64,000 nt of DNA from Bacteroidales bacterium. GTDB lineage: Bacteria > Bacteroidota > Bacteroidia > Bacteroidales > UBA3824. The notes under the pieces were generated by a model. The model was not told the DNA's origin. It did not search any database and saw only the letters and a program-made list of their open reading frames with translations. Shown one piece after another: positions 47,075 to 61,501 of this stretch. Each line of letters starts with the position of its first letter. Within the stretch, counting starts at the first letter, position 1. The stretch lies in assembly GCA_016286055.1 (NCBI GenBank), contig JAEERW010000011.1, forward strand, positions 1-64,000, read 5' to 3'. A program made the position numbers and the translations under genes.

Positions 47075-47572
47075 CTATAACCAAACCTTCACTCCTCCGT
47101 GATGCGAACAAGTGCCACGGCGGTGTGCACTGAAACTATATGTTCCATCGCGGCAAATTGCAGTTGCGCCCGATGGCTGAGTGTTGCTGTATTGCGGTCG
47201 CGGAATCCAATTGCCATCACAATTGCGATAGTAACCATTATGACTATTGTACGAACTCGTAGATTGTGACGACCAACTGTAATTATTTGTGCTGACTTTT
47301 GCAGTCAACACTTTTTGTTGAGAGAGATATTTTGTTGAGATATAACCTGTCTGTCCATTGTAGTTAACTCTTAACCAATCACTTTCATTATAACTTGGAT
47401 CGTTGATCGTTACTTGTGTTCCGGCAGACACTTGACCAATAACGCCGTAATTGGTTGATGGTCCACGTCGTAAGTTCAGATTTGTGGTGGTATAAAGAAC
47501 AGTTTGTCCAAAACTGCTTAATGTAATGATGATATTCAGTGCGAATATCAAAATAAAGTGTTTTTTGCTCAT
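47075..47572 (-). CDS. Secreted SH3b + DUF3761 protein
   Basis: A 165-residue exported protein: signal peptide to SFGQ, a bacterial SH3 domain (LNLRRGPSTNYGVIGQVSAGTQVTINDPSYNESDWLRVNYNGQTGYISTKYL), a Ser/Tyr-rich linker, and a C-terminal DUF3761-type motif (TAICRDGTYSFSAHRRGTCSHHGGVKVWL) with two Cys and three His. SH3b domains bind cell wall or protein peptides. It is transcribed from the TGTAACC-N16-CACTAA promoter at 47606-47634 and closed by the hairpin at 46950. Confidence 0.83.
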   Translation of the reverse strand: MSKKHFILIFALNIIITLSSFGQTVLYTTTNLNLRRGPSTNYGVIGQVSAGTQVTINDPSYNESDWLRVNYNGQTGYISTKYLSQQKVLTAKVSTNNYSWSSQSTSSYNSHNGYYRNCDGNWIPRPQYSNTQPSGATAICRDGTYSFSAHRRGTCSHHGGVKVWL

Positions 47573-47605: not shown

Positions 47606-47634
47606 TTAGTGACAGAAATGAGCAAAAGGTTACA
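47606..47634 (-). promoter_or_regulatory. ECF-type promoter, site a (SH3b gene)
   Basis: On the minus strand, TGTAACC (47634-47628), 16 bp, CACTAA (47611-47606), 33 bp before the ATG. One of five such sites. Confidence 0.75.
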
Positions 47635-47652
47635 CTTTTTTTTGATAATTTT

Positions 47653-48117
47653 TTAGACGCAAGCCTTTGCTAAGAATAATCCTATGATACTCATCACAAG
47701 AAGGACGATAACCCAAGATTTTAATTCCTCTCCTGCGGCTTTAACTGCTACTTTGGTGTTTTGTTTTAGCGAATGCATAAATTCCTCAACAAGATTGCGA
47801 GCGTATTCGCGAGCATCATCCACGTCTCGTTTTACATTTTCGTCTTTGATATTATATGAATATGTCCACGATGGCGATGACGTAACTTCTGTTGTCTCTT
47901 GTTTGAAAGTCCTATATTCTTGGTCGTATCGTGTACGTTTTTCATCATCTTTTAAGATGGCATAGGCCTCATTGATATCTTGCATCATCGAAGTTGTGTC
48001 TTTGCCTGGATTTCGGTCGGGATGATATTTCATCGATGCAGTCTTGTATGCCTTCTTGATTTCCTCAGAAGTGGCATTTTGAGCAATGCTAAGTATCTGA
48101 TAATAGTCTTTGAACAT
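47653..48117 (-). CDS. J-domain protein with C-terminal membrane anchor
   Basis: A 154-residue protein. Residues 4-70 form a DnaJ J-domain with the HPD tripeptide (MKYHPDRNP) needed to stimulate DnaK; the C-terminus is a single hydrophobic helix (VIVLLVMSIIGLFLAKACV). It would recruit Hsp70 to the cytoplasmic membrane. It starts 2 bp after the small membrane-protein gene, so both are probably read through from the TDMFGN gene promoter (site b) at some level, beyond a hairpin at 48394. Confidence 0.85.
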   Translation of the reverse strand: MFKDYYQILSIAQNATSEEIKKAYKTASMKYHPDRNPGKDTTSMMQDINEAYAILKDDEKRTRYDQEYRTFKQETTEVTSSPSWTYSYNIKDENVKRDVDDAREYARNLVEEFMHSLKQNTKVAVKAAGEELKSWVIVLLVMSIIGLFLAKACV

Positions 48118-48119
48118 AC

Positions 48120-48353
48120 TTATTTTTGAAGAATTGATGAAGAATTGCTCTCGTTTTTCTTGTTGTCATCGTCTTTGTTGTCTTTTTTCCAAAGGGCGCG
48201 AAGTGCTGCTATTAATACGCACATAGCCACAACGCCAAGAATGCCAGGTGTATGAAACCCTTGACTTTGCCGTCCGGCGTTTATTAATCCGAATACGATG
48301 AAGAAAATGACTATTGCTACTATGGTAACAATGATTTTTGCTGCCTTATTCAT
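48120..48353 (-). CDS. Small two-helix membrane protein
   Basis: A 77-residue protein with two hydrophobic segments (IIVTIVAIVIFFIVFGLINA and GILGVVAMCVLIAALRALW) and a charged Asp/Lys/Asn/Ser tail. No family recognised. It lies 2 bp upstream of the J-domain gene and may be its membrane partner. Confidence 0.65.
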   Translation of the reverse strand: MNKAAKIIVTIVAIVIFFIVFGLINAGRQSQGFHTPGILGVVAMCVLIAALRALWKKDNKDDDNKKNESNSSSILQK

Positions 48354-48393
48354 GATTATATATTTAAGAATTATGCTTCTATTAAGATTTTAA

Positions 48394-48422
48394 GGGATGG
48401 GCTTTATTATAAAGTCCATCCC
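48394..48422 (-). terminator. Hairpin after the TDMFGN-repeat gene
   Basis: GGGATGGGCTTT pairs with AAAGTCCATCCC (48394-48405 with 48411-48422) directly after the stop. On the minus strand the following bases are only moderately T-rich (aaaatctt), so it may attenuate rather than fully stop transcription into the downstream genes. Confidence 0.6.
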
Positions 48423-48431
48423 GTTAGTTCA

Positions 48432-48926
48432 TTACCAGTTTCTAAAAGATGTATTAGTGTTGCCAAACATATCAGTGTTACTTGTCGCTGAGCCTGTTTT
48501 ACGTCCAGACGCATCATAATAGTCAGTAGTTGTGTTGCCAAACATGTCGGTACGACTTGTTGAGGATCCAGCCTTACGTCCATACGAATCTGTATAGTTT
48601 GTGTTTGTGTTGCCGAACATGTCAGTGTGACTTGTTGATGAGCCAGCATTACGTCCATACGAATCCGTGTAGGTGGTGTTGGTGTTGCCAAACATATCGG
48701 TACGACTTGTTGCAGTACCTCTTTGTCCGTAACTATCACGGTATGTTGTGGTTGTGTTACCAAACATATCGGTACGACTTGTTGCAGTACCACTCTGTCC
48801 GTAACTATCACGGTATGTTGTGGTTGTGTTACCAAACATATCAGTACTTGTGGTAGCGCTTCCATATTGCGCACTTACCGATGAAACGGCAGCGGCAAAC
48901 ATTAATGTAAATAGAATTCTTTTCAT
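48432..48926 (-). CDS. Secreted TDMFGN-repeat protein
   Basis: A 164-residue exported protein (signal peptide MKRILFTLMFAAAVSSVSAQ) made almost entirely of six 24-25-residue repeats of the pattern S-x-T-x-TDMFGNT-x-T-x-Y-x-DSYGR. The repeats are rich in Ser, Thr, Gly and aromatic residues and contain no Cys, suggesting an extended or amyloid-like beta structure or adhesin-like surface protein; no family is recognised. The ATG at 48926 is chosen because the site-b promoter (48965-48993) lies between it and the upstream ATG at 48986. Adjacent repeats are very similar in DNA, so repeat number may vary. Confidence 0.78.
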   Translation of the reverse strand: MKRILFTLMFAAAVSSVSAQYGSATTSTDMFGNTTTTYRDSYGQSGTATSRTDMFGNTTTTYRDSYGQRGTATSRTDMFGNTNTTYTDSYGRNAGSSTSHTDMFGNTNTNYTDSYGRKAGSSTSRTDMFGNTTTDYYDASGRKTGSATSNTDMFGNTNTSFRNW

Positions 48927-48964
48927 GGTTGTATAATTTAAATAGTTAAACAATATTTTTTTCC

Positions 48965-48993
48965 TTAGTGTCTCAAATCCTACCAAGGTTACA
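48965..48993 (-). promoter_or_regulatory. ECF-type promoter, site b (TDMFGN gene)
   Basis: Minus strand: TGTAACC (48993-48987), 16 bp, CACTAA (48970-48965), 38 bp before the ATG at 48926. Confidence 0.75.
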
Positions 48994-49012
48994 ATTTAAT
49001 ACGAACTTTTTT

Positions 49013-49297
49013 TTAAGATGCCGTATCCACATTTTGTACACTTTGTGTCGAATTTTGCGACATATTGTCTGATAGTTTTATACTGTCGTGGGTATCAGCC
49101 AAGGGCGAAATGTCGCGCAAAAAATTGCGATGAAGCACACGCGAAATCTTTATCAACATTTCAACGTCGATGTTTTTGCGCTGAAAAATGTTGTAAACAT
49201 TTGTGCGGTTGCAGTTTAACTGTTGCGCCAACCATTCGGCGCGGCGGCCTTGCTGTATAAATTCCTCTTTTATGAGGTTTCCGATGTGAATCTCCAT
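49013..49297 (-). CDS. Small XRE-like HTH regulator 1
   Basis: A 94-residue protein whose first 65 residues form a helix-turn-helix domain (MEIHIGNLIKEEFIQQGRRAEWLAQQLNCNRTNVYNIFQRKNIDVEMLIKISRVL) and whose tail is polar and Ser/Asn-rich. Its paralogue at 59506-59790 is about two-thirds identical in the HTH part. I chose the ATG at 49297 since it aligns with the paralogue start and leaves space after the site-c promoter; another ATG is at 49315. It lies directly upstream of the TDMFGN promoter and may regulate it. Confidence 0.8.
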   Translation of the reverse strand: MEIHIGNLIKEEFIQQGRRAEWLAQQLNCNRTNVYNIFQRKNIDVEMLIKISRVLHRNFLRDISPLADTHDSIKLSDNMSQNSTQSVQNVDTAS

Positions 49298-49326
49298 TTC
49301 AAATGTTTTTGTCATAATTTCTACCC

Positions 49327-49355
49327 TTAGTGATTTTACTTGCAGAAAGGTTACA
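49327..49355 (-). promoter_or_regulatory. ECF-type promoter, site c (HTH regulator 1)
   Basis: Minus strand: TGTAACC (49355-49349), 16 bp, CACTAA (49332-49327), 29 bp before the ATG at 49297. Confidence 0.75.
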
Positions 49356-49574
49356 ACTTTTCTAAAATTAATTTTTGCAAAGGTAGAAAACCACTATTTT
49401 GGAGCGTTATATTTGTGTATCAGATATTTATACAGATAGTTGCAGATTTATGGACATTTTGTATAACAATCTTGTACAAATAGTTTTTCGTTGCCTTTTG
49501 CCCTTGATGATGGCAATATCTGGTGGTGGTTACAGGTGTCAGAAGAAAAAATTGCTTTTTTTTAAAAAAAAACA

Positions 49575-49582
49575 TATCTTTG
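49575..49582 (+). promoter_or_regulatory. Promoter -7 box of the AAA-ATPase_like gene
   Basis: TATCTTTG, 23 bp before the ATG at 49606. The 290-bp gap upstream also holds TATATTTG near 49408 and site c; nothing else is recognised there. Confidence 0.65.
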
Positions 49583-49605
49583 CCAAAAACTAAACTTATA
49601 AGTTT

Positions 49606-51174
49606 ATGGGCATATTCATCGACAAGGGCAACATTGCCTTCAATGGCATCAGAAATTCCGCCTTTATTGACAAGTCGGGGTTATTAAGTATTTTAAACGA
49701 AAGTATCGATACTTCGCATCGTTATATGTGCGTGTCGCGTCCACGGCGTTTTGGTAAGTCCGTAGCCGCAAAGATGATTTATGCTTATTACGATAGAAAA
49801 TCTGATTCCGCTCCGCTGTTTGATGATTTGGAAATTGCAAAACTGCCAAGTTACAAAAAGCACCTTAATAAATATCCGACAATTTATATTGATTGGAACA
49901 AGTTTTCGCAATTAGACAATCAGAGCGTTGTGGAAGAGGCTCAAAAAGAAGTGATTAAAGACTTAAAAGAGTCTTATCCTTTTTTGGAAGAAAAAGAATT
50001 GTTGAGCAGAGCACTTGACGAAATCCACCAAAAAACCGGCGACCGTTTTGTCTTTATCATTGACGAGTGGGATAGGTTGGTGCGCGAAATTGATGAAAAA
50101 ACGCAGACAAAATATGTCAATTTCCTCCGCTCAATGTTCAAATCAAATACTGCCGATGATGTTTTCTTATTGGTGTATATGACTGGTATTCTGCCTATTA
50201 TAAAGGTTGAATTACAATCGGCATTGAATAATTTTGATGAGTACAGCGTTATTGACCCGGGTAGAACTGCGCAATATTACGGTTTTACAGCAATGCAAGT
50301 ACAATCTCTCTGCAACAAGTTTAATATGGATTTTGAAATGATGAAGCACGCCTACGACGGTTATATCATAGGTGATGAAAAGTCGATGTTTAATCCAAAT
50401 TCGGTGATGCAGTCGATAGAAAAAAGAAATTACAACAGCCATTGGTCGAAATCCGCATCGTACACAACCATTGAGCATTACATCAAAAACGACATCGACG
50501 GATTGCGCGACAAAATTGTTAGGATGTTAAACGGAGAAAAGGTTTCAATCAGCGTTACGAGTTTCCGTAACGATATGAAAAACATCGAAACTTGTGACGA
50601 TGTTCTTACGCTTTTGGCGCATCTCGGCTACTTGTCGTACGATCCTGTGTTTGGTCGTGTTATGATTCCAAACACCGAGGTTGCCGACGAGTTTAAGAAC
50701 TCAATTCGTGTATGTGGATGGGGCAGTTTGTCGAAGGCGATAGGCAATTCGCGCGAACTTCTTAATGCAACTATTGCCGGTGATAAAAAATACATTGAAA
50801 AGGCTTTGGATTCGTATCACGATGAGGCGACATCGTTTATAGAGTTCAACGATGAAAATTCTTTGGCGTGTGCCATCCGCCTTGCATATTATTCGGCGCA
50901 GGCTCAATACGAAATTTTCAGGGAGTTCCCCTCGGGCAAAGGCTTTGCCGATATGGTTTTTGTACCTATTAAAAATTCGCCATATCCCGCCGTGGTTGTA
51001 GAGTTGAAATACGACAAAACCGCCGAAGGCGCAATTGCCCAAATAAAATCCAAAAACTATCACGGCAAACTCCAAAATTTTTCAAAAACTATTATCCTGC
51101 TTGGTATCAACTACGATAAAACCACCAAAAAACACGAAGTGGAGATTGAGGCGTTGAATGGGGAGTTTGTGTAG
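49606..51174 (+). CDS. AAA-ATPase_like protein with C-terminal PD-(D/E)XK nuclease
   Basis: A 522-residue protein of the family common in gut Bacteroidota (AAA-ATPase_like, Pfam PF09820, plus PDDEXK_9, PF08011). Walker A is SRPRRFGKSVAAKM near 45 and Walker B FVFIIDEWDRLVRE near 150. The nuclease motif is GFADMVFVP...AVVVELKYDKTAEGAIAQI near 445-470, with Asp and ELK. Function of the family is unsettled; defence or mobile-element roles are often proposed. It is inserted on the plus strand between the two minus-strand CHAT gene sets, and its stop lies 7 bp from the TPR-CHAT 2 stop. Confidence 0.87.
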   Translation: MGIFIDKGNIAFNGIRNSAFIDKSGLLSILNESIDTSHRYMCVSRPRRFGKSVAAKMIYAYYDRKSDSAPLFDDLEIAKLPSYKKHLNKYPTIYIDWNKFSQLDNQSVVEEAQKEVIKDLKESYPFLEEKELLSRALDEIHQKTGDRFVFIIDEWDRLVREIDEKTQTKYVNFLRSMFKSNTADDVFLLVYMTGILPIIKVELQSALNNFDEYSVIDPGRTAQYYGFTAMQVQSLCNKFNMDFEMMKHAYDGYIIGDEKSMFNPNSVMQSIEKRNYNSHWSKSASYTTIEHYIKNDIDGLRDKIVRMLNGEKVSISVTSFRNDMKNIETCDDVLTLLAHLGYLSYDPVFGRVMIPNTEVADEFKNSIRVCGWGSLSKAIGNSRELLNATIAGDKKYIEKALDSYHDEATSFIEFNDENSLACAIRLAYYSAQAQYEIFREFPSGKGFADMVFVPIKNSPYPAVVVELKYDKTAEGAIAQIKSKNYHGKLQNFSKTIILLGINYDKTTKKHEVEIEALNGEFV

Positions 51175-51181
51175 ATGATTT

Positions 51182-53590
51182 TTAATCCAACATCACCCAC
51201 GCTGCCCAATAATACGGGTCGGGAAAATGTTTTTTAACCTCGTCTTGGGCAAGTTTGAGAGCCTTGTGGCGGTCGTTGGTTTCAAAGAGAAATTTGTAAA
51301 AATGCTCCATAAAGATAGCCGTTACACCGTCATCCACCTTCCACAGCGACATCAATATCGCCCCTGCACCTGCTTGTTTAAAAGCACGTTGCAAACCAAA
51401 AACGCCGTCAACTGGAAAAATCTTTCCCCTTGCCGTTTCACAGGCGGAGAGGACAACGAGTTTTGTGTTTGATAGGTCGAGTTGAGATATTTCGTAGGCG
51501 GTGAGGATGCCGTCTTCGGAATTAACATCTTCAAAATTACCCTTCCATTTTATGTCGGCTCCCGACAATGCCAATCCCGAAAGCACCATTGGTGCTTCTT
51601 TCTGAGAATATGTATTAACGCTTTGTGCAAAAGGCTTTTGAGATTCCTCATCCAAGTAAAAACCGTGTGTTGCAACGTGCAGAATATCGGGCGAATGTCC
51701 GCTCAATTGTTTAAAAGAATCTTCGGTGGCAGATGTACCGCAAAGTGTGTCGGTTTTAATGTTTGCAGTAGATAGAATTGTGTTTATGTTTTTGATTTCG
51801 TTAGCACTATTAGGCAAATTGGCGAAATCAATGCCTCTATTAACGGCAACGGCATTTTCAGAGGTGTTTTTATAATCAATGCCACCATAAAGAGAGGCTG
51901 TTTTGGCTGATTTAAGGTCTAAGGATTTGACTTCGGGGATATTTGCGGTAGAGGATACTCGCACCATTTTGTATTTTTGACAGAGAGGGATGCCGGAATC
52001 GTCCATAAATAAATCAAAATTAAGTTGTGAAAGATTACCACAAGGAGAATAGTAGATGGTATGGGCGTTGGGGATAAATGACTCTATTTCAGAAAAAAGA
52101 ATTTTGTAGAGAGCCATTGTTCTATTTTGATAAATACTTGAATAAAATAATGCATCACCATTTTGATTGATAAAAATAGAATCCATTGTTTTAACAGTAA
52201 CAGAAAGAGCAATCTTTGGTTTTGCAAAATGTTTGCCGATAACAAGAGCACAATAAGTGGTATCAGTTCCTTCTCCATCTTGTGCAGGAGCAAACATTTG
52301 TGCATATTCAATAGCATATTCACCGTCAGAAAGAGATTCCTTTATATCATCCAATGATTTCGATGATTTTTCTAGTAACAAGCGTAAATTATTTATATTA
52401 TGCAAAATAGAATCCTCTATCTTTCTAATTTGTGTTTTTAATGAAACTATTGTAATGCTGTCAGTGGTTTTAAATAAATAATCTTGTTTTAAGCGTAATA
52501 AATTTGAATATTGATTCTTTAATGAAATATCAGTTGAATTTTCAACATAATTGTATATAATTTTATCGGAATTCATTAAAAGATTTCGGCAAAAAAGAGT
52601 CATATTATACGCTTGCTTTAAACTGTAAGAACTATTATGAAAATAAGCCACCATATTGTTTAGTGGCAAGACTTCCATTGATATTTTAGTCCAAAAATTA
52701 TCCCACTGATTTTTAGGAAAATCAGACATTATTTTTGTAACACAATCAATAGTAATTTTGTTGTATTCATCCAATGATTTAGCGGTAGAACTCAAATTCC
52801 ATCGAGCGAAATTGGCTAAAACTAAATTCTGTGCAATATTATAAGCATATATTGAATTAATTTTTCTTGCTTGTTTCAATACATTTAAAGCCTTACCTAA
52901 CAAACCGGCGCGTATCAATGCAACACTATAATTATTTAAGGCGAGCGGAAGTGCATTATTTGATTCAAAAGTACCTTTACAATTATCAATTACATAACGA
53001 TAACATTTACCTGCAATATAATTATTACCAACGTTGTAATTGGCAACGCCATAATTGTTTACAAGAAGAAAGTGTTTTTCATCAGTAATTTTAAAAATAC
53101 TTCCGTGATGCTGTTCGTATATTTCTACGGCAGCATCCATAATTTTTTTCATATCTTCATAATGCTGAACATCATTGCAAACATTTGCAGCATTGCACAT
53201 TGCAATTATAAATTCATCACCAACATCGTTTACCTCCTGACACATATTTACAGTTTGTTCAAACCACTTCATCGCCTCCACATAATTTTTTAAGTAATAG
53301 GCAATTAAACCGGAGTAACAATATAGAATACGCATTGGCTTATCGTTAATTATGTTTTGTGCTTTAAGTGTATTAATGCTACTTTCAGCAATTTGTTGCG
53401 CTTGGTAATAATCACTTTGTTGTATATATATATAAATTAAAGAGTTGACTGTTTCAGAATACGAATCTTCGTTAAATATAGTCCCTTTTTCAAGTTTGTT
53501 TTTAACTTGCACAAGCGAATCCACATTAATTTGGGCAGTTAAACTGTAACCACAGAATAATAAGGTAAGAATAACTATTGCTTTTTTCAT
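51182..53590 (-). CDS. Exported TPR-CHAT protein 2 (caspase-like)
   Basis: An 802-residue protein with a signal peptide (MKKAIVILTLLFCGYSLTAQ), TPR-like helices over ~400 residues, and a CHAT domain with His642 (LHVATHGFYLD) and Cys717 (VLSACETARGK). The last ~120 residues are nearly identical to TPR-CHAT 1, including at the DNA level, while the TPR regions share only a general pattern. The housekeeping-type -7 box at 53607-53614 is close to the ATG. The gene start overlaps the end of the Cys-rich ORF (53587) by 4 bp. Confidence 0.87.
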   Translation of the reverse strand: MKKAIVILTLLFCGYSLTAQINVDSLVQVKNKLEKGTIFNEDSYSETVNSLIYIYIQQSDYYQAQQIAESSINTLKAQNIINDKPMRILYCYSGLIAYYLKNYVEAMKWFEQTVNMCQEVNDVGDEFIIAMCNAANVCNDVQHYEDMKKIMDAAVEIYEQHHGSIFKITDEKHFLLVNNYGVANYNVGNNYIAGKCYRYVIDNCKGTFESNNALPLALNNYSVALIRAGLLGKALNVLKQARKINSIYAYNIAQNLVLANFARWNLSSTAKSLDEYNKITIDCVTKIMSDFPKNQWDNFWTKISMEVLPLNNMVAYFHNSSYSLKQAYNMTLFCRNLLMNSDKIIYNYVENSTDISLKNQYSNLLRLKQDYLFKTTDSITIVSLKTQIRKIEDSILHNINNLRLLLEKSSKSLDDIKESLSDGEYAIEYAQMFAPAQDGEGTDTTYCALVIGKHFAKPKIALSVTVKTMDSIFINQNGDALFYSSIYQNRTMALYKILFSEIESFIPNAHTIYYSPCGNLSQLNFDLFMDDSGIPLCQKYKMVRVSSTANIPEVKSLDLKSAKTASLYGGIDYKNTSENAVAVNRGIDFANLPNSANEIKNINTILSTANIKTDTLCGTSATEDSFKQLSGHSPDILHVATHGFYLDEESQKPFAQSVNTYSQKEAPMVLSGLALSGADIKWKGNFEDVNSEDGILTAYEISQLDLSNTKLVVLSACETARGKIFPVDGVFGLQRAFKQAGAGAILMSLWKVDDGVTAIFMEHFYKFLFETNDRHKALKLAQDEVKKHFPDPYYWAAWVMLD

Positions 53591-53874
53591 TTTTTATCTT
53601 TTTTTGCAAAGATACAAAAAAGGTTGTAACAATAAATTCTGTTACAACCTTTTTCATTCTTTTTTCCGCAAATGCGACACAATCGCCGTCCTTTGTTTAT
53701 TGCTGTGCTTTCAGATACCGCTTGTATACTGGTACTACAATTATTCAAACCTCTGCACTTTGATGTCAAGTGGTATGCCACTGATTTTGGTCCGTTGCAG
53801 ATATATACAGTCCTTTCGGGGGCGGTAGAGAAGGATGTTACTAATATAAATATAACCGATAGTAAATATTTCAT
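53587..53874 (-). CDS. Small secreted Cys-rich protein (possible 3' frameshift)
   Basis: A 95-residue protein with a short signal peptide (MKYLLSVIFILVTSFSTA) and the motif YICNGPKSVAYHLTSKCRGLNNCSTSIQAVSESTAINKGRRLCRICG. This CRGLxxC...GRRxCxxC pattern, preceded by Tyr-His, looks like a small Cys/His metal-binding or disulfide fold that I have seen in Bacteroidota hypothetical proteins. The last ~20 residues (NEKGCNRIYCYNLFCIF...) run through a strong terminator hairpin and the next promoter. One extra T in the T6 run at 53660-53665 would end the protein at CRICGKKE, just before the hairpin, so the true stop may be there. Promoter site d drives it. Confidence 0.65.
   Translation of the reverse strand: MKYLLSVIFILVTSFSTAPERTVYICNGPKSVAYHLTSKCRGLNNCSTSIQAVSESTAINKGRRLCRICGKKNEKGCNRIYCYNLFCIFAKKDKK
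53607..53614 (-). promoter_or_regulatory. Promoter -7 box for TPR-CHAT 2
   Basis: Minus-strand TATCTTTG, 16 bp before the ATG at 53590. Confidence 0.65.
53617..53654 (-). terminator. Terminator hairpin between the Cys-rich gene and TPR-CHAT 2
   Basis: AAAAAGGTTGTAAC and GTTACAACCTTTTT form a long stem with a 10-nt loop (53631-53640). On the minus strand it ends in a T run. It overlaps the last codons of the Cys-rich ORF. Confidence 0.8.
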
Positions 53875-53907
53875 TTGTTTTATGCTTTTGATTTTTCCTA
53901 TTTACTA

Positions 53908-53936
53908 TTAATGTCAAAATATGGCAAAAGGTTACA
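53908..53936 (-). promoter_or_regulatory. ECF-type promoter, site d (Cys-rich protein)
   Basis: Minus strand: TGTAACC (53936-53930), 16 bp, CATTAA (53913-53908; one mismatch to CACTAA), 33 bp before the ATG at 53874. Confidence 0.7.
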
Positions 53937-53953
53937 CTTTTTTCGAGAAATAA

Positions 53954-54280
53954 TCAGTAATTTTGCTTCTTTTTTTTGAATAAGTTCGTCACACCATATA
54001 TTACTAAGGGTATCAAAACAGCATAAAGCAAAAATTCAGTTATATCATAATCATACTTAACATCAACTAACGGAAATGTCCAATCGTGGTCGCATTCCCA
54101 TTTCTTACCCCAAAAGAGCATTATCAAATTGGCGACAAACCATATTCCGTAAAACCAAAGCCATTTTTTCCCTTTGGCTGACAGTTTTAAGAAGCCTGAG
54201 TTTTCTTCTTGAAACCCACCGCAATGCTGACAATACTTTGAATCGTCAGCGATTTCTTTTCCACATTGTTTGCAATACAT
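53954..54280 (-). CDS. Zinc-ribbon membrane protein
   Basis: A 108-residue protein beginning MYCKQCGKEIADDSKYCQHCGG, a four-Cys zinc ribbon, followed by two hydrophobic helices (WLWFYGIWFVANLIMLFWG and ITEFLLYAVLIPLVIYGVTNLF) and a KKKK tail. The start at 54280 is set by the ribbon; upstream in-frame codons are AT-rich and not protein-like. It is the last gene of the run that begins at the site-e promoter. Confidence 0.75.
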   Translation of the reverse strand: MYCKQCGKEIADDSKYCQHCGGFQEENSGFLKLSAKGKKWLWFYGIWFVANLIMLFWGKKWECDHDWTFPLVDVKYDYDITEFLLYAVLIPLVIYGVTNLFKKKKQNY

Positions 54281-54299
54281 AATGTATATTTTTTTTATG

Positions 54300-54863
54300 T
54301 TATTCGTTTTCGTAAAATAATATCTGATGAAAGTTTTCTGTTTGACAAGGTACTGCAACAATATCTTTGTACAAGTATCCCGTATAAACATCGTTATTCG
54401 CAAACACAATTTGAATGCTATCTCTACTCATTTCTCTTATTGCCAAACTCATCATAATAAAAGCATCATAGATGTCTGTTGTTGCAGAAATAGATGTAGT
54501 TTCATTTCCTTGTTTCACTATCAACATTTTCATTGAATTCTGATAATTGAAGCGGTAAATTGTTTGCCCATTTTCGTTAATTACTTTTTCCAAATATTGA
54601 TGATTTTCAGGAATTTGGTCATATTTTTCTTTTGTAAATAGAGAGTTAACTGCCTCTAACATCATTTTTGTATCATTTCTACAAGCATCGCTAATATATT
54701 GTTTTAAAGTGTCGGGTAATAGCGACTTGCTTGTGTCGGGTATAATCTTGTCGTCTGTTAGTTGATTCACCGACGAATTATTGTTAATAGTGTTAGAAGG
54801 ATGATTGTTGGAACAAGCCGCAACAATCAAAAATAGAATTATTATTAATACATTATTTTTCAT
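54300..54863 (-). CDS. Hypothetical lipoprotein
   Basis: A 187-residue lipoprotein (MKNNVLIIILFLIVAACSNN, lipobox AAC). The mature part has an Asn/Ser linker followed by a compact domain (LKQYISDACRNDTKMMLEAVNSLFTKEKY ... YLEKVINENGQTIYRFNYQNSMKMLIVKQGNE). No family recognised. It begins 4 bp after the preceding gene's stop; an upstream ATG at 54905 would overlap that gene and is not preferred. Confidence 0.68.
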   Translation of the reverse strand: MKNNVLIIILFLIVAACSNNHPSNTINNNSSVNQLTDDKIIPDTSKSLLPDTLKQYISDACRNDTKMMLEAVNSLFTKEKYDQIPENHQYLEKVINENGQTIYRFNYQNSMKMLIVKQGNETTSISATTDIYDAFIMMSLAIREMSRDSIQIVFANNDVYTGYLYKDIVAVPCQTENFHQILFYENE

Positions 54864-54867
54864 TATC

Positions 54868-55233
54868 TTATCTACTAAATGCTGATAAAAAATCTTCGAT
54901 TTCACTAATCATATTATATTGGTTCGCATTTTCAGGGAATTCCCATTCTTTTACGATGTGTTTCCCTTGAAGTTTGTACAATACTGACAAAGTGCCAAAT
55001 GTTTGAATCATTTCAAATTGCATATATGCACCGGGTCCAGGAGTGTAGGTAAACAGCAAAGAAGATGAGGTTTCTTGGCTCAACTTACATCCTTGTTGTT
55101 CAAACCAATTGGCTAAGGTAGAGTATTTTACTCTCATACCACCTTGTTTTTTTACAGCCGTTGATTGTTTGTTTACATCTATGGCAAATTTGATGATTAT
55201 AATTGCCACAATAATGATTATTGTTGTCAACAT
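54868..55233 (-). CDS. Hypothetical single-pass membrane protein
   Basis: A 121-residue protein with one N-terminal helix (MLTTIIIIVAIIIIKFAI) that may be an uncleaved anchor, and a small alpha/beta domain (LANWFEQQGCKLSQETSSSLLFTYTPGPGAYMQFEM). No family recognised. It is in the MORN-like gene cluster, 20 bp after the protein ending at 55254. Confidence 0.65.
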   Translation of the reverse strand: MLTTIIIIVAIIIIKFAIDVNKQSTAVKKQGGMRVKYSTLANWFEQQGCKLSQETSSSLLFTYTPGPGAYMQFEMIQTFGTLSVLYKLQGKHIVKEWEFPENANQYNMISEIEDFLSAFSR

Positions 55234-55253
55234 ATTTATTCTATTTTAAATTT

Positions 55254-56642
55254 TTACTTAATAGGATTTCCATTTTTATATTCTGTGGTTTGATAGATTG
55301 TGCCGGTATTGTCGCCTTTTATGGTGTGTTGGGTTATTAATGATTGTGATATTGTGTATGTTACGGTTACGGGTTCGTTGATTCCGTCTATTTGCCGATT
55401 TTTGAGGTGTTGCTGCCCCGAGAAGGGTTTACCGTCCAAAGTGTAAAACCGAGATGGTTCAGATAAGTTGGTATAATCCAACACCTCGTAACAATTGTCT
55501 TCATAAAAATATTGGCGGACTTTTCCAACTAATTTGCTATTTGCTTTGGCTCCTTCCATCTGTATTTTGCCTTCGGTGTTGTAATATTTAAACGATCCTT
55601 CTTGTTCCCCATTTTTGTAGTTGACTTCTGAATGTATGGCGTCTTCTCTAAGACCGTTGTTATAGAATGATTTCCACAGACCATCGCGCAATCCGTTTTT
55701 GCAAGATCCTATTTCGCATACCTTGTCGTTAAAGTAATAAGATGTATGTTTGCCTGTATATGGCTTGTTGTCAAGGGTATAGTAGCGGAGTTCGTCGGTA
55801 TCAAAGTTGTCGGATACATAATAGCCTTGGTCGAAGAAATATTCGCGCCAAAGTCCGGTCCGCTCGCCATATTTGTATTGACCGAGGTAAATGTTTCTAC
55901 CTTCTCTGTCTGTATTCACCATTTTGCCGTGCGGAATGATGTAGTCTTGTGGCAAACTATTGAGATAAAAGGGTTGTGTTAATACCTCTGGCATAAATAA
56001 GTAAAGGTAGTCGGTAGAACTTGTCGCGGTTTTGTTGTGAATATAATATTCGATATAATGCTGAGTTACATTGGCTGTGAACGCAGAGTCGTACATTTGA
56101 GTAAGTTTGAATTCCGCTCTTACAGTGCCATCAGAATAGTAGATGGTTTCGCTCTGCAAATATCCGTTTTCAAATATTTCTTCTTGGTGGATTTTATCAT
56201 CAATATACCAAATTTGCTTTCCTTGGAGGATTCCATTTTGATAATTTAAAACGTAAGTTTTGTAACCTTCTTCACTATAATGATAATCTTCGCCGTCCAT
56301 TTTGTTGTTTTTCTTAGTCCATTTTTCGCGAAGTTTGCCGCTTTGGTAGTAGTTTTTTTGCTCACCTTCTTCGATGAAAGTGATTGTGCCATTGGCTGTT
56401 TCTATTCTTGAATAAAATCCTTCACCTTGTAACTTGCCGTTGATATAGTAGTCTTGATATGGTTTTAATCCTATTTTGGATTTATCTTTTGCGTTGTACA
56501 GACGGTAATATTCAGCATTCGAAGCATTTTGGATAATGTTCCAATTTTTGTCGAAATATACTTTGTCGGCTAATTCCTGCGCCGTGCAAGGTTCAACAGC
56601 CAATATTATTATGGCAATGATGATTAAATTAATGTTTTTCAT
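55254..56642 (-). CDS. Exported MORN-like repeat protein (YwqK-type)
   Basis: A 462-residue exported protein (signal peptide MKNINLIIIAIIILAVEPCTAQ) with repeated beta-hairpin motifs such as YYQSGKLREKWTKKNNKMDGED and YNNGLREDAIHSEVNYKNGEQEGSFKYYNTEG. These MORN-variant repeats are the kind annotated as toxin-antitoxin system YwqK family antitoxin; an antitoxin role is not supported here because the protein is secreted. Its C-terminus (RFYTLDGKPFSGQ...YTISQSLITQHTIKG) is homologous to that of the neighbouring gene, so the two are paralogues. Confidence 0.78.
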   Translation of the reverse strand: MKNINLIIIAIIILAVEPCTAQELADKVYFDKNWNIIQNASNAEYYRLYNAKDKSKIGLKPYQDYYINGKLQGEGFYSRIETANGTITFIEEGEQKNYYQSGKLREKWTKKNNKMDGEDYHYSEEGYKTYVLNYQNGILQGKQIWYIDDKIHQEEIFENGYLQSETIYYSDGTVRAEFKLTQMYDSAFTANVTQHYIEYYIHNKTATSSTDYLYLFMPEVLTQPFYLNSLPQDYIIPHGKMVNTDREGRNIYLGQYKYGERTGLWREYFFDQGYYVSDNFDTDELRYYTLDNKPYTGKHTSYYFNDKVCEIGSCKNGLRDGLWKSFYNNGLREDAIHSEVNYKNGEQEGSFKYYNTEGKIQMEGAKANSKLVGKVRQYFYEDNCYEVLDYTNLSEPSRFYTLDGKPFSGQQHLKNRQIDGINEPVTVTYTISQSLITQHTIKGDNTGTIYQTTEYKNGNPIK

Positions 56643-56671
56643 AGCAGAGTTTTTTTTGATATTAGTATTAT

Positions 56672-57232
56672 TTATTGTGGCAATCCATCCTTAAATTTTG
56701 TTTTTAAAATGGTTTTGCCTGTGGTTGGATTGCTGTATGTAATTTCTTCGATGAGAGATTTTTTGATTTTATAAATGGCGGTGACATCAAAGCCGTCAAG
56801 TTTTTCGTGATTTGTAAATTTTCCCGAAAAAGGCAGTTCGTTGAGGGTATAAAATAACCACGGAATGTTTTGACCATTTTTATTAACAATGTAATAAAGA
56901 TTTTGTCCGTAATAGGTATATTTCCAAATGCCTGTTTCTTTGTTGTAGGTATATTCTCCGTTGATAATTTCACGGTTTTGATGGTCGTAGATGAGAACTT
57001 TGCCGTTTTTCTCCATCTTTATGCCGTTGCCGAATACAGATTTGAATGGTTTTGTAAGCACACTGTCGGGATGGATATCATAATACCGCATTGTGATTAT
57101 GTGGCTGATGTCAGGGTTGTCTTTTTCGGTGTAATACAATATTTCTCTACCTGTAAAAGAGTAAGATCCTTTGCTTGTAAGGGTAAATTCTGACAATACT
57201 CTGCCATCTTTGTACATTGCTTGCTGTTGCAT
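56672..57232 (-). CDS. C-terminal part of the large MORN-like protein (split by frameshift)
   Basis: This 186-residue frame continues the MORN-like protein at 57147-58928. In the upstream frame the repeat reads ...SEFKK then degenerates, whereas removing one base from the A6 run (T6 at 57240-57245 on the plus strand) gives SEFKNGYMQQQAMYKDGRVLSEFTLT, which aligns with FENGYLQSETIYYSDGTVRAEFKLT of the paralogue at 55254. The end (WLFYTLNELPFSGKFTNHEKLDGFDVTAIYKIKKSLIEE) also matches the paralogue's end. It probably has no start of its own. Confidence 0.7.
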   Translation of the reverse strand: MQQQAMYKDGRVLSEFTLTSKGSYSFTGREILYYTEKDNPDISHIITMRYYDIHPDSVLTKPFKSVFGNGIKMEKNGKVLIYDHQNREIINGEYTYNKETGIWKYTYYGQNLYYIVNKNGQNIPWLFYTLNELPFSGKFTNHEKLDGFDVTAIYKIKKSLIEEITYSNPTTGKTILKTKFKDGLPQ

Positions 57233-58928
57233 ATAACCATTTTTTAAATTCTGATGCCATAAATATTTTGCCGTCAGAATCCAACCAAACTTGTCTACCG
57301 TCTAATTTTCCGTCTTTGTAATTGTTTGTAACCCGTTTCTTGTTTGTTGAATATGAATACATCTCACAAACTCCATCTAATTTACCGTTTTTGTAATTAC
57401 TATAATATTTGACATCTTGATCTATATCTATTTCTGTCCATCGTCCATCGCGTTGATTGTTGTAAAAATTGCCTTCGGCTATGATATTGCCATTGTTGTC
57501 GTGTTGTTCATAGTGTCCGTTGAGTTCATCGTATGAGTAATTGCAAATGTAATCTATTGAATCTTTGATTATTACATTTGAAGTTAAAGATGGAGTAAAA
57601 CTGTTTAGGGCAATATCCTTTTTATATTTTATATATTTGCCGTGCAATTTGCCCCAATGGTAGTTGGCAATACAGTCTATGTGATTGTTTATGTAGTAAT
57701 ATTTCCATACTCCTTCTTTTTCGTCGTCAACATATTTTCCTTCGGCTGCGGGTTGCATTAACTTGTTCTTGTAATGCCAATAACCGCTCTTTTTGCCGTT
57801 GGTATAATATCCGTCAACGAGCACAAATAAATCATTATCGTCAAAAAAATTACCCATATCGAGAAGTCCTCCTTTTACTTGATAACTGCCATCGCGTTTT
57901 CCATAATTGTAGTTGCAGTAAACAATTGAGTCGCTACCGAAAGACCATTCTTTGGCAGCACCGTGGAGCATTCCGTTGCTATAATTTGAAAACATTATGG
58001 TTATCCACTTGCCGTCGAGCAGATATTGCATTTGCCAAAGCCCTTCACGCTCGTCGTTGAGATAATTTCCCGTTTGTTTTAAAAACAACTCGCCATTGTT
58101 GAACTTATAGCCTATGAATTGTCCGTTTCTTTCTCCGTTTTTATAATAACATTCATTGTCTTTTATTCCTTCTTCGTTGTATTCCGTTACGAGACCGTTT
58201 TTTTCGTTATTTAACAAAGTGCCAGTAATTTTCGGATTTCCATTTTCATAATAAAAGTTGTATGGCCCATTACCATTGCCATTGACATAAGTTATTACAC
58301 TTTCGAGACTCCCATCTTCATAATAGGAATACCCTTTGCCATTGCGTTTGCCGTCTTTTAGCGTGTAACGCTCTTTTACTGTGGACGTTCCATAATAATA
58401 TGTAACTTTTTCGCCATTGTCAACGTCGTAAATGCCACCCTTGCGAACAAGACTTATTAGATATGTTACCACTGTACCTCCTCCGTATGCTCGTTCTTGG
58501 GTGGTGGTTTCGATTTCAAGAATAAATGAAGAATTGCTATAAGTTGTTGTTATGTAGTTGTCGTGAATCTGATTGTCAATCTGTTTATAACCGTTGGCAG
58601 ATAATGCCGCTTTAATTGCCTTGTATGCATTGTCGGTGGGTTGGTACATTACTTGCTCCACGCGATTATTGTATGTGTAAAAATGAAACCAAGCCGAAGC
58701 CCGATCCTCGTTCCAGGAATTTTTACCGTGGGCGTAGGTTATGGTAGAATATTCGTAGGTGTTGCCACGTTTTGAATCGTGATATTCCCAACCTTTGCGG
58801 GTGAGAGTATTTGACCCTGTTTCCCAATCCGACAGTCTGCATAGGTTTTGCAACTCTGCCAATGTCAGGTTTTGGGCAGAAATGGGGAAGGTAGATATTA
58901 TTAATAATATGGATAATAGGTGTTTCAT
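57147..58928 (-). CDS. Exported MORN-like protein with N-terminal paralogous domain (N-terminal part, frameshifted)
   Basis: A 593-residue frame: signal peptide (MKHLLSILLIISTFPISAQ), a ~145-residue domain (LTLAELQNLCRLSDWETGSNTLTRKGWEYH...) that is paralogous to the whole of the next gene (58939-59433), then more than ten MORN-variant repeats (GKRNGKGYSYYEDGSLES, GEKNGLVTEYNEEG, GKRDGSYQVKGG, GKLHGKYIKYKK). The last ~25 residues (LYATASNVQRWQSIVRIYPYKQ...) are out-of-frame sequence after the T6 run at 57240-57245. Joined to 56672-57232, the gene would encode about 750 residues. It starts 10 bp after the preceding gene. Confidence 0.75.
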   Translation of the reverse strand: MKHLLSILLIISTFPISAQNLTLAELQNLCRLSDWETGSNTLTRKGWEYHDSKRGNTYEYSTITYAHGKNSWNEDRASAWFHFYTYNNRVEQVMYQPTDNAYKAIKAALSANGYKQIDNQIHDNYITTTYSNSSFILEIETTTQERAYGGGTVVTYLISLVRKGGIYDVDNGEKVTYYYGTSTVKERYTLKDGKRNGKGYSYYEDGSLESVITYVNGNGNGPYNFYYENGNPKITGTLLNNEKNGLVTEYNEEGIKDNECYYKNGERNGQFIGYKFNNGELFLKQTGNYLNDEREGLWQMQYLLDGKWITIMFSNYSNGMLHGAAKEWSFGSDSIVYCNYNYGKRDGSYQVKGGLLDMGNFFDDNDLFVLVDGYYTNGKKSGYWHYKNKLMQPAAEGKYVDDEKEGVWKYYYINNHIDCIANYHWGKLHGKYIKYKKDIALNSFTPSLTSNVIIKDSIDYICNYSYDELNGHYEQHDNNGNIIAEGNFYNNQRDGRWTEIDIDQDVKYYSNYKNGKLDGVCEMYSYSTNKKRVTNNYKDGKLDGRQVWLDSDGKIFMASEFKKWLYATASNVQRWQSIVRIYPYKQRILLFYR

Positions 58929-58938
58929 TGGGAGGTGA

Positions 58939-59433
58939 TTATTTTCGAGAAAGGGTTATTGATGATGATGCCTTAGTACCACCCAATTGGGTATCAGAAG
59001 TAAATGTAGAGAATTTCAATTCAAATGTATTATTGGCGTATATTGTAGTGATGTTGCTATTGTCTATTTCGCTGTTGATGCGTTTGTAGCCATTGGCTGC
59101 CAATGAGTTTTTAATTGTGTTCATTGCTGCATTTGGTCCATTATAATATACACGTTCTACGTGTCCGTCATCATCGATAAATAGGCGAGCCCACCCCGAT
59201 GCGTAATCACCGTTCCAATCACTTAAATCGTATGCAAAAGAAATAATAGCATAATGTGATTCGTCTCCTTTGACAGATCCGTAAAATTCCCATCCTTTGC
59301 GGGTGAGAATATCATTGCCCGTCTGCCAGTTAGAAAGTTTACAAATGTTTTGCAATTCTGCCAAAGAAAGTGTTTGCGCCGTGGCAGAAAATGTTATAAA
59401 TAACAATAACAAGGTTAAAATTTTAGTTTTCAT
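58939..59433 (-). CDS. Exported stand-alone copy of the MORN protein's N-terminal domain
   Basis: A 164-residue exported protein (signal peptide MKTKILTLLLLFITFSATAQ). Its mature part, LSLAELQNICKLSNWQTGNDILTRKGWEFYGS...LAANGYKRINSEIDNSNITTIYANNTFELKF, is a clear paralogue of residues 20-165 of the next protein. Tandem duplication of the domain is the simplest explanation. No described family is recognised. The ATG at 59433 is chosen because it starts the signal peptide. Confidence 0.75.
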   Translation of the reverse strand: MKTKILTLLLLFITFSATAQTLSLAELQNICKLSNWQTGNDILTRKGWEFYGSVKGDESHYAIISFAYDLSDWNGDYASGWARLFIDDDGHVERVYYNGPNAAMNTIKNSLAANGYKRINSEIDNSNITTIYANNTFELKFSTFTSDTQLGGTKASSSITLSRK

Positions 59434-59505
59434 AATGTTAGTATTATTAGTATAATTAGAGTAATTGTTTGTTAGTAAATATACGTCCATTTTCGCTCCA
59501 CGTTT

Positions 59506-59790
59506 TCAAATTTCAGTATCAGGATTTTGGACATTCTGTAACATATTTTTCGACATATTGTCTAACGATTTTAGACACTTGCCCTCATCTATCAGATTTG
59601 CAATATCTTGAAAGAAGTTGTGCTCCAATACATGCGAAATCTTTATCAACATTTCAACGTCGATGTTTTCGCGGTTGAAGATGTTGTAAACATTTGCACG
59701 GTTGCAGTTTAGTTCCGAGGCGAGCCACATTGCGCGGCGGCCTTGACGGTCGAATTCCGTTTTAATAAGGTGTCCTATGTGTATTCCCAT
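59506..59790 (-). CDS. Small XRE-like HTH regulator 2
   Basis: A 94-residue paralogue of regulator 1 (MGIHIGHLIKTEFDRQGRRAMWLASELNCNRANVYNIFNRENIDVEMLIKISHVLEHNFF), also with a polar tail (LDNMSKNMLQNVQNPDTEI). The ATG at 59790 is used because promoter site e (59816-59844) lies between it and the farther upstream possible start at 59868. It is the first of eight closely spaced minus-strand genes down to 53954. Confidence 0.8.
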   Translation of the reverse strand: MGIHIGHLIKTEFDRQGRRAMWLASELNCNRANVYNIFNRENIDVEMLIKISHVLEHNFFQDIANLIDEGKCLKSLDNMSKNMLQNVQNPDTEI

Positions 59791-59815
59791 TTCTTGGCGT
59801 TTTAAAATTTTACCA

Positions 59816-59844
59816 TTAGTGAAGGAATCTTTAAAAAGGTTACA
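59816..59844 (-). promoter_or_regulatory. ECF-type promoter, site e (HTH regulator 2 operon)
   Basis: Minus strand: TGTAACC (59844-59838), 16 bp, CACTAA (59821-59816), 25 bp before the ATG at 59790. Confidence 0.75.
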
Positions 59845-59914: not shown

Positions 59915-59938
59915 CTGCAAAATTAAAACTTGACGATT

Positions 59939-61501
59939 ATGCGCGAATTCAACACTACGGGAACTTGCTATCCTCAACTGCATTATATGGTGGACATCTC
60001 CAAACGCCTCGACGACATCGAAAATAAAGTTGCCAAAGGGGAATATATCACCATCAATCGTGGTCGCCAGTACGGAAAGACTACTACACTTTATCACTTG
60101 GCGCAGCGTCTTAGCAAAGAGTACGTGGTTTTTTCGATAAGTTTTGAACAAATGGGCAATACCGAGTTTGCTACGGAAGACACACTAACGTATTATTTTT
60201 TAGACAGATTGCGGCTAAAATTAAGAACCGTAAGCAATTTAAACGATTATGTAAAAGACGCTATAACATCCATTGTAGAAAAATATTCGGCACAAAAAGA
60301 AATCAATTTTTCGTTGCTCGATGAGTTTATTCCCAATCTTTGCGAAAAATCTGATAAACCGGTTGTACTCATAATCGACGAAGTGGACAGTGCAAGCAAT
60401 TTTGAATCGTTTATCAAATTGCTTAGATTATTGCGCGACAAATATCTCAACCGCATGGATGTGCCAACTTTTCAATCCGTTATCCTTGCCGGTGTTTATG
60501 ATGTAAAAAACCTCAAACTCAAAGTTCGCCCTGATAGCGACCATCAATATAATTCGCCGTGGAATATTGCTGTGCCTTTCGACGAGGATATGGCACTCCA
60601 AAAAGACGGAATCGAACAAATGCTCCAAGATTACGAAAACGACCATAAAACCGGTATGGACGTATCTGAAATGGCACAGTTGGTTTGGGATTATTCGTCG
60701 GGTTATCCGTTTTTTGTGTCGAGGTTGTGTCAATTAATTGATACAAAGCATTTTGAATGGAATTATAATGGTTTCTTGATGGCAGAAAAATATTTGCTCA
60801 ACGAGAAAAACACCTTCTTTGACGATTTGGCTAAAAAGTTGGAAGATTTTCCAAAAATGAAGCAACTTCTTAAAGATATTCTTTACAATGGTTATGAAGA
60901 AAGTTTCAATACCTACTACAAACATATTGAGATTGCGGCGATGTTCAACTATATCAAGAATGTTAACGGCAAGGTAATGATTTTCAATAGGATAATCGAA
61001 ACTTGGATGTACAATCTCTTTATGGTGGAGGAGGCTATTGAAAACCGTCTTTACAAAGAAGGTCAGATAGACCGCAGTCAGTTTATCGAAGGCAACGTTC
61101 TCAAAATGGACAAAGTTATCGAAAAATTTGCGCAACATTTTAATGATATTTACGGCGACAAAGGCGACAAGTTTTGCGAGGACGAAGGACGTCGTTATTT
61201 TATGCTCTACATCAAGCCAATTATCAACGGCACAGGCAATTACTATATCGAAGCCCAAACCCGCGACCTCAGCCGTACCGATATGATTATCGACTATTTA
61301 GGTAAGCAATACATCATAGAAATGAAGATTTGGCGCGGCAACGCTTACAACGAACGTGGCGAACATCAACTTACAGAATATCTTGATTATTACCACGTTA
61401 ACAAAGGCTATATGCTGAGTTTTAATTTTAACAAAAACAAGGTTTCGGGTGTTAAGACATTGAAATTTGGCAATAAAGAGATTGTGGAGGCGGTGGTATA
61501 A
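59939..61501 (+). CDS. AAA ATPase with C-terminal nuclease-like domain
   Basis: A 520-residue protein: Walker A INRGRQYGKTTTLYHLAQ near 40, Walker B KPVVLIIDEVDSASNFES near 140, a long helical middle, and a C-terminal PD-(D/E)XK-like segment (QTRDLSRTDMIIDYLGKQYIIEMKIWRGNAYNERGEHQLTEYLD) with Asp and Glu-Met-Lys in the expected spacing. It opens REFNTTGTCYPQLHYMVDIS, typical of the AAA-like family found next to mobile genes in Bacteroidota. The role is unknown. It lies 20 bp before the sigma-factor gene, so one transcript likely carries all three. Confidence 0.83.
   Translation: MREFNTTGTCYPQLHYMVDISKRLDDIENKVAKGEYITINRGRQYGKTTTLYHLAQRLSKEYVVFSISFEQMGNTEFATEDTLTYYFLDRLRLKLRTVSNLNDYVKDAITSIVEKYSAQKEINFSLLDEFIPNLCEKSDKPVVLIIDEVDSASNFESFIKLLRLLRDKYLNRMDVPTFQSVILAGVYDVKNLKLKVRPDSDHQYNSPWNIAVPFDEDMALQKDGIEQMLQDYENDHKTGMDVSEMAQLVWDYSSGYPFFVSRLCQLIDTKHFEWNYNGFLMAEKYLLNEKNTFFDDLAKKLEDFPKMKQLLKDILYNGYEESFNTYYKHIEIAAMFNYIKNVNGKVMIFNRIIETWMYNLFMVEEAIENRLYKEGQIDRSQFIEGNVLKMDKVIEKFAQHFNDIYGDKGDKFCEDEGRRYFMLYIKPIINGTGNYYIEAQTRDLSRTDMIIDYLGKQYIIEMKIWRGNAYNERGEHQLTEYLDYYHVNKGYMLSFNFNKNKVSGVKTLKFGNKEIVEAVV

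Follow-up and report, generated by a model that had tools for sequence, protein, structure and literature searches.

Five TGTAACC-N16-CACTAA sites lie on the minus strand of a 64,000-nucleotide stretch of a Bacteroidales bacterium genome (GCA_016286055.1, contig JAEERW010000011.1, positions 1 to 64,000; genome G000 in our locus names), referred to here as the window. These sites are, with high probability, promoters read by an extracytoplasmic function (ECF) sigma factor that is encoded in the window itself, next to a membrane partner that would restrain it (Table 1). A preliminary description of this DNA had proposed an ECF regulon from the sites and had made no mention of a sigma gene; our analysis supports that proposal and adds a candidate for the sigma factor, whose gene lies 1.7 kb from site e. 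As judged from sequence comparison, recognition of the motif by this factor is a strong inference, because motif, spacing and ECF family travel together among genomes while the helix-turn-helix (HTH) genes that follow two of the sites do not.

The five sites lie where they had first been placed, each with a spacer of exactly 16 bases and with CATTAA replacing CACTAA at site d. None of 100 shuffles of the window gave five matches (mean 0.01), and in the whole genome (4,175,574 bases in 36 contigs, 99% complete) the exact pattern TGTAACC-N16-CAYTAA occurs at these five places only, the reversed-pattern control giving 0. A relaxed pattern with one mismatch and looser letters finds 104 matches in the rest of the genome and 161 in its reversed control, and a pattern relaxed up to three mismatches finds 61 and 97, respectively. 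As these counts are at or below their controls, any further regulon members in this genome are indistinguishable from background. The upstream block runs on as TGTAACCTT at all five sites and is therefore longer than initially described. The distances of 25-38 nt reported between site and start codon hold for sites a, b, d and e; at site c the first ATG follows after 11 nt, and the ATG that matches the paralogous gene after 29 nt. TAnnTTTG is the housekeeping promoter box of Bacteroidota. Its absence between site and start codon, also reported before, is borne out in all five cases, but a TACCTTTG box stands 30 nt upstream of site c, so the gene behind this site may have a housekeeping promoter as well.

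The same motif recurs throughout the genus. Among 18 genus genomes the exact pattern has 55 matches, spread over 13 genomes, and the reversed pattern has 1; three non-canonical matches, which do not read TGTAACCTT (G017:C115, G017:C269 and G009:C112), are retained in this count. With a stricter pattern in which two mismatches are tolerated, there are 57 matches and 8 in the control. The 49 distinct contexts have the consensus TGTAACCTTTy-N10-GACACTAA with an A-rich run behind it, and both blocks and their spacing are fixed before unrelated genes while the spacer sequences vary from site to site. In most contexts (42 of 49) the ATG of an open reading frame of at least 50 amino acids follows 6-47 nt after the end; in three the distance is 82-109 nt, and four have no such frame. 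Matches scattered in coding sequence, named in the preliminary description as an outcome that would speak against a regulon, are not what we find: the exact matches of the own genome all fall in the cluster, and the genus contexts lie mostly before ATGs. With a spacer one base longer there are no matches in five genus genomes that hold eight exact matches at the right spacing, and none in 393 genomes of the order. In the genus context loci TGTAACCTTT occurs 53 times, 50 of them with CACTAA, CATTAA or CACAAA at +13, and permuted 10-mers occur 2.1 times on average (maximum 21); these loci were chosen for holding sites, so the count is descriptive and is not a test.

The proposed reader of the sites has the make-up of a two-domain sigma-70 protein of about 190 amino acids, as judged from TIGR02937 and the SigW profile. 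Its own profile matches the SigW structure 5wuq with an E-value of 2.8e-4, and its score against Pfam Sigma70_r4_2 is 16.6 bits, below the cut-off of 25.7. All five sites of the genome lie within 1.7-13.9 kb of its gene. The genus has 14 ECF genes of this type, and eight of them have a site no more than 15 kb away, where chance would give about 0.025 for each gene; the corresponding P (4e-10) presupposes independence, and two pairs of these ECF genes share a contig. In one relative (L089) the whole arrangement runs in a single direction, as site, MORN, CHAT, metacaspase, ECF and anti-sigma-like gene, and the order site-MORN-CHAT in one direction is found in six genus loci (L089, L104, L107, L115, L121 and L122).

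The association extends to more distant relatives, with a coherent change in the motif. A scan of genomes gave 30 loci, 16 of which, with an ECF 33-42% identical, were used for gene order; L214, a partial ECF match, was left out of these counts, and L201 and L209, which are genus genomes, were not counted as distant. Record names and ECF identity suggest that the 16 genomes belong to other genera, the label Lachnospiraceae in the record of L206 being probably a binning error. A metacaspase-like gene directly precedes the ECF gene in 16 of 16 loci, and downstream of it 15 loci have both an anti-sigma-like and a TPR-CHAT gene, the sixteenth locus (L207) ending there. The upstream block in these loci reads GTTAACCTTT instead of TGTAACCTTT, giving the variant GTTAACCTTT-N13-CAYTAA. 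We count 22 occurrences of GTTAACCTTT in 12 of 19 distant loci, where 300 permuted 10-mers average 1.0 with a maximum of 10, and 20 of the 22 have a CAnnnA hexamer at +13 (CATTAA, CACTAA, CATAAA, CACAAA or CACATA). When the gap in TAACCTTT-CAYTAA is varied from 8 to 19 over 17 loci (the 16 and L214), eight matches appear at gap 13 and none at the other 11 gaps. When the variant is sought in the 16 whole genomes, 13 matches result, of which nine fall in the ECF locus (one of these within the coding sequence of the ECF itself), and the reversed control gives two. Two genomes of one other family (L303 and L304; ECF about 29% identical), which were found later with a wider profile and played no part in motif discovery, carry the GTTAACCTTT block roughly 230 nt ahead of the ECF gene, with CACATA as the hexamer; tblastn near the ECF gene found no metacaspase or CHAT gene in these two. 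A set of 393 genomes of the order, separate from the 16, was searched with both variants and gave 19 matches in 18 of 388 non-genus genomes, 17 matches in four of five genus genomes, and 37 in the reversed control. The 19 matches against 37 indicate that, beyond the genus, the strict pattern does not rise above background in this order-wide set. The narrow ECF family itself (E below 1e-40) is present in at least six of these 393 genomes, a lower bound since at most eight candidates were scored per genome.

Several observations weigh against assigning the sites to this ECF factor. The ECF operon in the window has no site of its own: the TATATTTG box that precedes the adjacent upstream AAA-ATPase gene makes it look housekeeping-driven, and autoregulation is not seen here. 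As a candidate, autoregulation in the window was rejected, the best motif-like strings in the 700 bp upstream having at least five mismatches in 13 of 14 genus ECF loci and four in the remaining one; elsewhere, the ECF gene lies downstream of a same-direction site in L089, and the variant is found upstream of it in L303 and L304. Six of the 14 genus ECF genes have no site on their own contig, and three of these had 17-63 kb available on one side; on one side, each of the six is no more than 4.1 kb away from the end of its contig. Conversely, G010 (96% complete; three sites, counting one with a mismatch) and G007 (72% complete; two sites) have sites, and neither an ECF of this type nor the partner was detected in them. 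G006 also lacks the ECF, though the partner gene runs off the contig end there, G013 carries the ECF but gives no site even with two mismatches tolerated, and G002 has a single two-mismatch match. Over the 18 genomes, the presence of ECF or partner and that of canonical sites are associated with a Fisher P of 0.057, and GTTAACCTTT is absent from seven of the 19 distant loci. As a side observation, the anti-sigma-like gene of G016 (L104 5941-6615) stands beside the metacaspase gene with a different N-terminus and with no ECF gene before it, as if the ECF had been lost through rearrangement.

A rival reading is that a different sigma factor, such as the core ECF2 encoded just outside the window or one not found, reads the sites, and that the linkage to the first ECF is a matter of co-location. 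ECF2 does lie near the cluster, and ECF2-like genes are found genus-wide, including the site-bearing genomes without the first ECF (G007 and G010). We consider this improbable: none of 11 ECF2 loci with 1.5 kb flanks has a site of three or fewer mismatches, ECF2-like genes are also present in genus genomes without canonical sites (G005, G009, G011 and G014), and it is the first ECF family that the variant motif accompanies into distant genomes, to the point of standing directly upstream of that gene in L303 and L304. It is still harder to see the sites as operators of the small HTH-like regulators. Two of the five do precede HTH-like genes in a manner that resembles autoregulation, but the site is non-palindromic and has a -35/-10 layout, and the distant loci with the motif retained yielded no match to the HTH proteins by tblastn (E 1e-4), whereas the ECF is present there; the HTH proteins were rejected as site binder on the latter ground. 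Finally, the HTH genes are paralogous and the cluster holds other paralogues, yet copies spread by duplication without promoter function can practically be discounted, given that the spacers differ around fixed blocks in the 49 contexts and that the variant keeps the same spacing in distant genomes.

How the ECF factor of the window would be controlled can be outlined from its neighbors. The gene overlapping its stop codon is a conserved partner of the ECF, with 24 aligned relatives, and its product has N-terminal helices, one hydrophobic helix and a C-terminal helical domain in a predicted model of low confidence (predicted template modelling score, pTM, 0.51). The match to a putative anti-sigmaE model is weak (16.9 bits, cut-off 225), and Foldseek with the predicted model returned no match at E 1e-3 or better and weak TPR-type matches only. 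The anti-sigma label is given because of position, conservation in the 24 relatives and architecture. This membrane-bound partner would keep the ECF inactive until an extracytoplasmic signal frees it, upon which transcription by RNA polymerase would begin a few bases past CACTAA, probably in the A-rich run that occupies positions 34-37 of the site context. The local regulon so expressed would comprise two small HTH-like regulators, small presumably exported proteins, MORN-like proteins and at least one TPR-CHAT protein that appears to be exported.

The metacaspase-like gene of the window lies directly before or after the ECF/anti-sigma pair in relatives. His101 and Cys170 of its product are invariant in 20 of 20 aligned sequences, and it matches metacaspase structures by sequence (E 8.3e-14) and the caspase fold by Foldseek (E 1.2e-11; mean pLDDT, the predicted local distance difference test, 85), with Pfam and NCBIfam matches below cut-off. 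The predicted model thus combines a caspase fold with the His/Cys pair, and the protein is a predicted peptidase. A tentative extension, which we would not rate as likely, is a proteolytic release in which metacaspase and CHAT proteins, acting outside the membrane, would cleave the partner and so free the sigma factor; CHAT produced through the regulon would then provide positive feedback. PADLOC matched the metacaspase alone, as 'caspase', so a defence role is not established.

ECF regulons are already known, as are CHAT genes in the vicinity of ECF factors and operons that combine a metacaspase with a sigma factor, and the following comparisons draw on parts of the respective papers. In the CASP of type III-E CRISPR systems, the TPR-CHAT protease Csx29 cleaves the inhibitor Csx30, which relieves inhibition of the ECF factor CASP-sigma, and sigma sites lie within the locus (PMC10028731). 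Similarly, the window encodes a CHAT-domain protein, an ECF and a putative inhibitor together, with sigma sites in the locus; unlike in CASP, the CHAT proteins seem to be exported, the partner has a membrane anchor and a metacaspase-like gene is a constant neighbor. The window ECF scores 22.8 bits against the type III-E sigma model NF041236, whose cut-off is 100, and on this basis we say that the system would work like CASP and do not call it CASP. In this regard, a more speculative and rather unlikely possibility is a non-CRISPR, extracytoplasmic logic of the CASP kind, in which exported metacaspase and TPR-CHAT proteins would sense envelope damage or invasion and cut the membrane anti-sigma protein, freeing the ECF. 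The ECF would then make more CHAT along with changeable small exported, HTH, helicase and methylase-type genes, in what would be, for gut Bacteroidales, a circuit of defence or death that reinforces itself.

CHAT-domain proteins also occur in the genetic context of ECF54, for which control by proteolysis has been proposed (PMC8999054). The window shares this feature of the context, but ECF54 has no anti-sigma factor in the text consulted, and the conserved anti-sigma-like gene is the reason why we do not place the window ECF in that group, a separation made by gene context and not by sequence. Metacaspase operons with sigma-70 factors are described in Myxococcus and others (PMC3501461), and a caspase together with an ECF has been reported (PMC8195603). 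Caspase-fold genes thus stand beside sigma-factor genes there as here, but the operons of PMC3501461 are reported without a promoter motif in the text examined. Within the phylum, an ECF promoter motif of F. psychrophilum, SM6, has a CGT box (PMC9723704), and a non-canonical motif of B. thetaiotaomicron is tied to SigW-1 and SigH-1 (PMC12596196). Judged by the portions consulted, these promoters, like our sites, combine an upstream with a short downstream element; in contrast to the CGT box of SM6, the downstream element here is CACTAA, and the letters TGTAA are absent from the main text of both papers (text only, figure logos lying outside this statement). In the open-licence literature we found neither the motif nor, in Bacteroidales, the combination of metacaspase, ECF, membrane partner and CHAT with a matched promoter.

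Uncultured rumen Bacteroidales thereby gain, from sequence alone, a defined ECF factor, its matching promoter and a testable list of targets, and gut bacteria farther removed show such a sigma factor together with its switch again. The change of the upstream block between lineages, from TG to GT, is coherent and could be used to study the co-evolution of sigma factors and promoters. In addition, metacaspase and CHAT proteins that appear to be exported, and whose bacterial roles are mostly unknown, would be tied to one transcriptional switch, so that both their induction and a possible triggering role are directly testable.

Table 1. Sites and genes of the cluster; positions refer to the window except for ECF2.
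Feature	Position	Strand	Remarks
Site a	47606..47634	-	promoter-like TGTAACCTTTTGCTCATTTCTGTCACTAA; 33 nt before SH3b/DUF3761 gene
Site b	48965..48993	-	38 nt before TDMFGN-repeat gene; site and gene also in relative G004 (L101)
Site c	49327..49355	-	before first HTH-like gene
Site d (CATTAA)	53908..53936	-	33 nt before Cys-rich gene that overlaps second TPR-CHAT gene
Site e	59816..59844	-	25 nt before second HTH-like gene
ECF sigma factor gene, 189 amino acids, proposed reader of the sites	61522..62088	+	TIGR02937, 48.4 bits (cut-off 42.9)
Anti-sigma-like gene, 233 amino acids	62088..62789	+	start overlaps ECF stop
AAA-ATPase gene	59930..61501	+	immediately upstream of ECF gene; TATATTTG box 23 nt before gene
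Core ECF2 gene	G000:C21:64406-64921 (L128 2386-2946)		2.3 kb beyond first ECF, just outside the window; neighbors conserved across genus; no site of three or fewer mismatches in 1.5 kb flanks
Metacaspase-like protein	43565..44437	+	N-terminal hydrophobic segment; opposite end of cluster from ECF
TPR-CHAT protein 1	44456..46918	-	downstream of site a's gene; PF12770, E 2e-52; own TATCTTTG box at -25
TPR-CHAT protein 2	51182..53590	-	overlaps end of site d's gene; PF12770, E 6.5e-51
SH3b and DUF3761 protein	47075..47572	-	behind site a; domain matches
DnaJ-domain protein	47653..48117	-	site b unit; PF00226, E 7.8e-23
TDMFGN-repeat protein	48432..48925	-	behind site b
Small HTH-like protein 1	49013..49297	-	HTH_3 16.8 bits and HigA model 21.6 bits, both below cut-off
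Small HTH-like protein 2	59506..59790	-	paralogue of protein 1; no Pfam match
Cys-rich small protein	53587..53874	-	no Pfam match; relatives behind sites in L102 and L120
MORN-like repeat genes and neighbors	55254..59433	-	downstream of site e; MORN_2 matches below cut-off

The products encoded behind the five sites are those first described, namely two small HTH-like paralogues and SH3b/DUF3761, TDMFGN-repeat and Cys-rich proteins; their secretion, also claimed at the time, depends on signal peptides judged by eye. Repeat-protein relatives of the TDMFGN protein stand behind sites in L107 and L199 as well (by tblastn similarity in the case of L199). Across the genus, the genes behind sites are HTH-like, MORN-like, Cys-rich, repeat, LRR-type, HAD-type and methylase-type, the last three labels having been given by eye. 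Sites in L109 (5043), L126 (1372), L110 (1210) and L113 (9980) precede methylase/helicase-type and HAD-type genes that, again by eye, resemble conflict or defence genes.

The first TPR-CHAT gene has a housekeeping-like box of its own, so that a clear tie to a site exists for the second alone, through its overlap with the Cys-rich gene. The last ~520 nt of the two genes are 88% identical in DNA and their last 50 amino acids are identical, while the first ~550 amino acids are 16-32% alike; with this constant catalytic end and variable front, the pair looks as if it were the product of recombination. Stand-alone 3'-end fragments of CHAT genes are found beside AAA-ATPase/PDDEXK genes in L092 (14522-14588), L104 (9658-9727) and L108 (4870-4910), and in the window 8 nt separate the end of a further AAA gene (49606-51174) from that of the second CHAT gene; together these gene ends suggest a recombination point. 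Pieces of the AAA-ATPase gene, with a protein 100% identical to the window copy, are found at contig ends of three relatives (L101 1-462, L104 1-462 and L115 4422-5024), reflecting either very recent transfer or an assembly cross-over.

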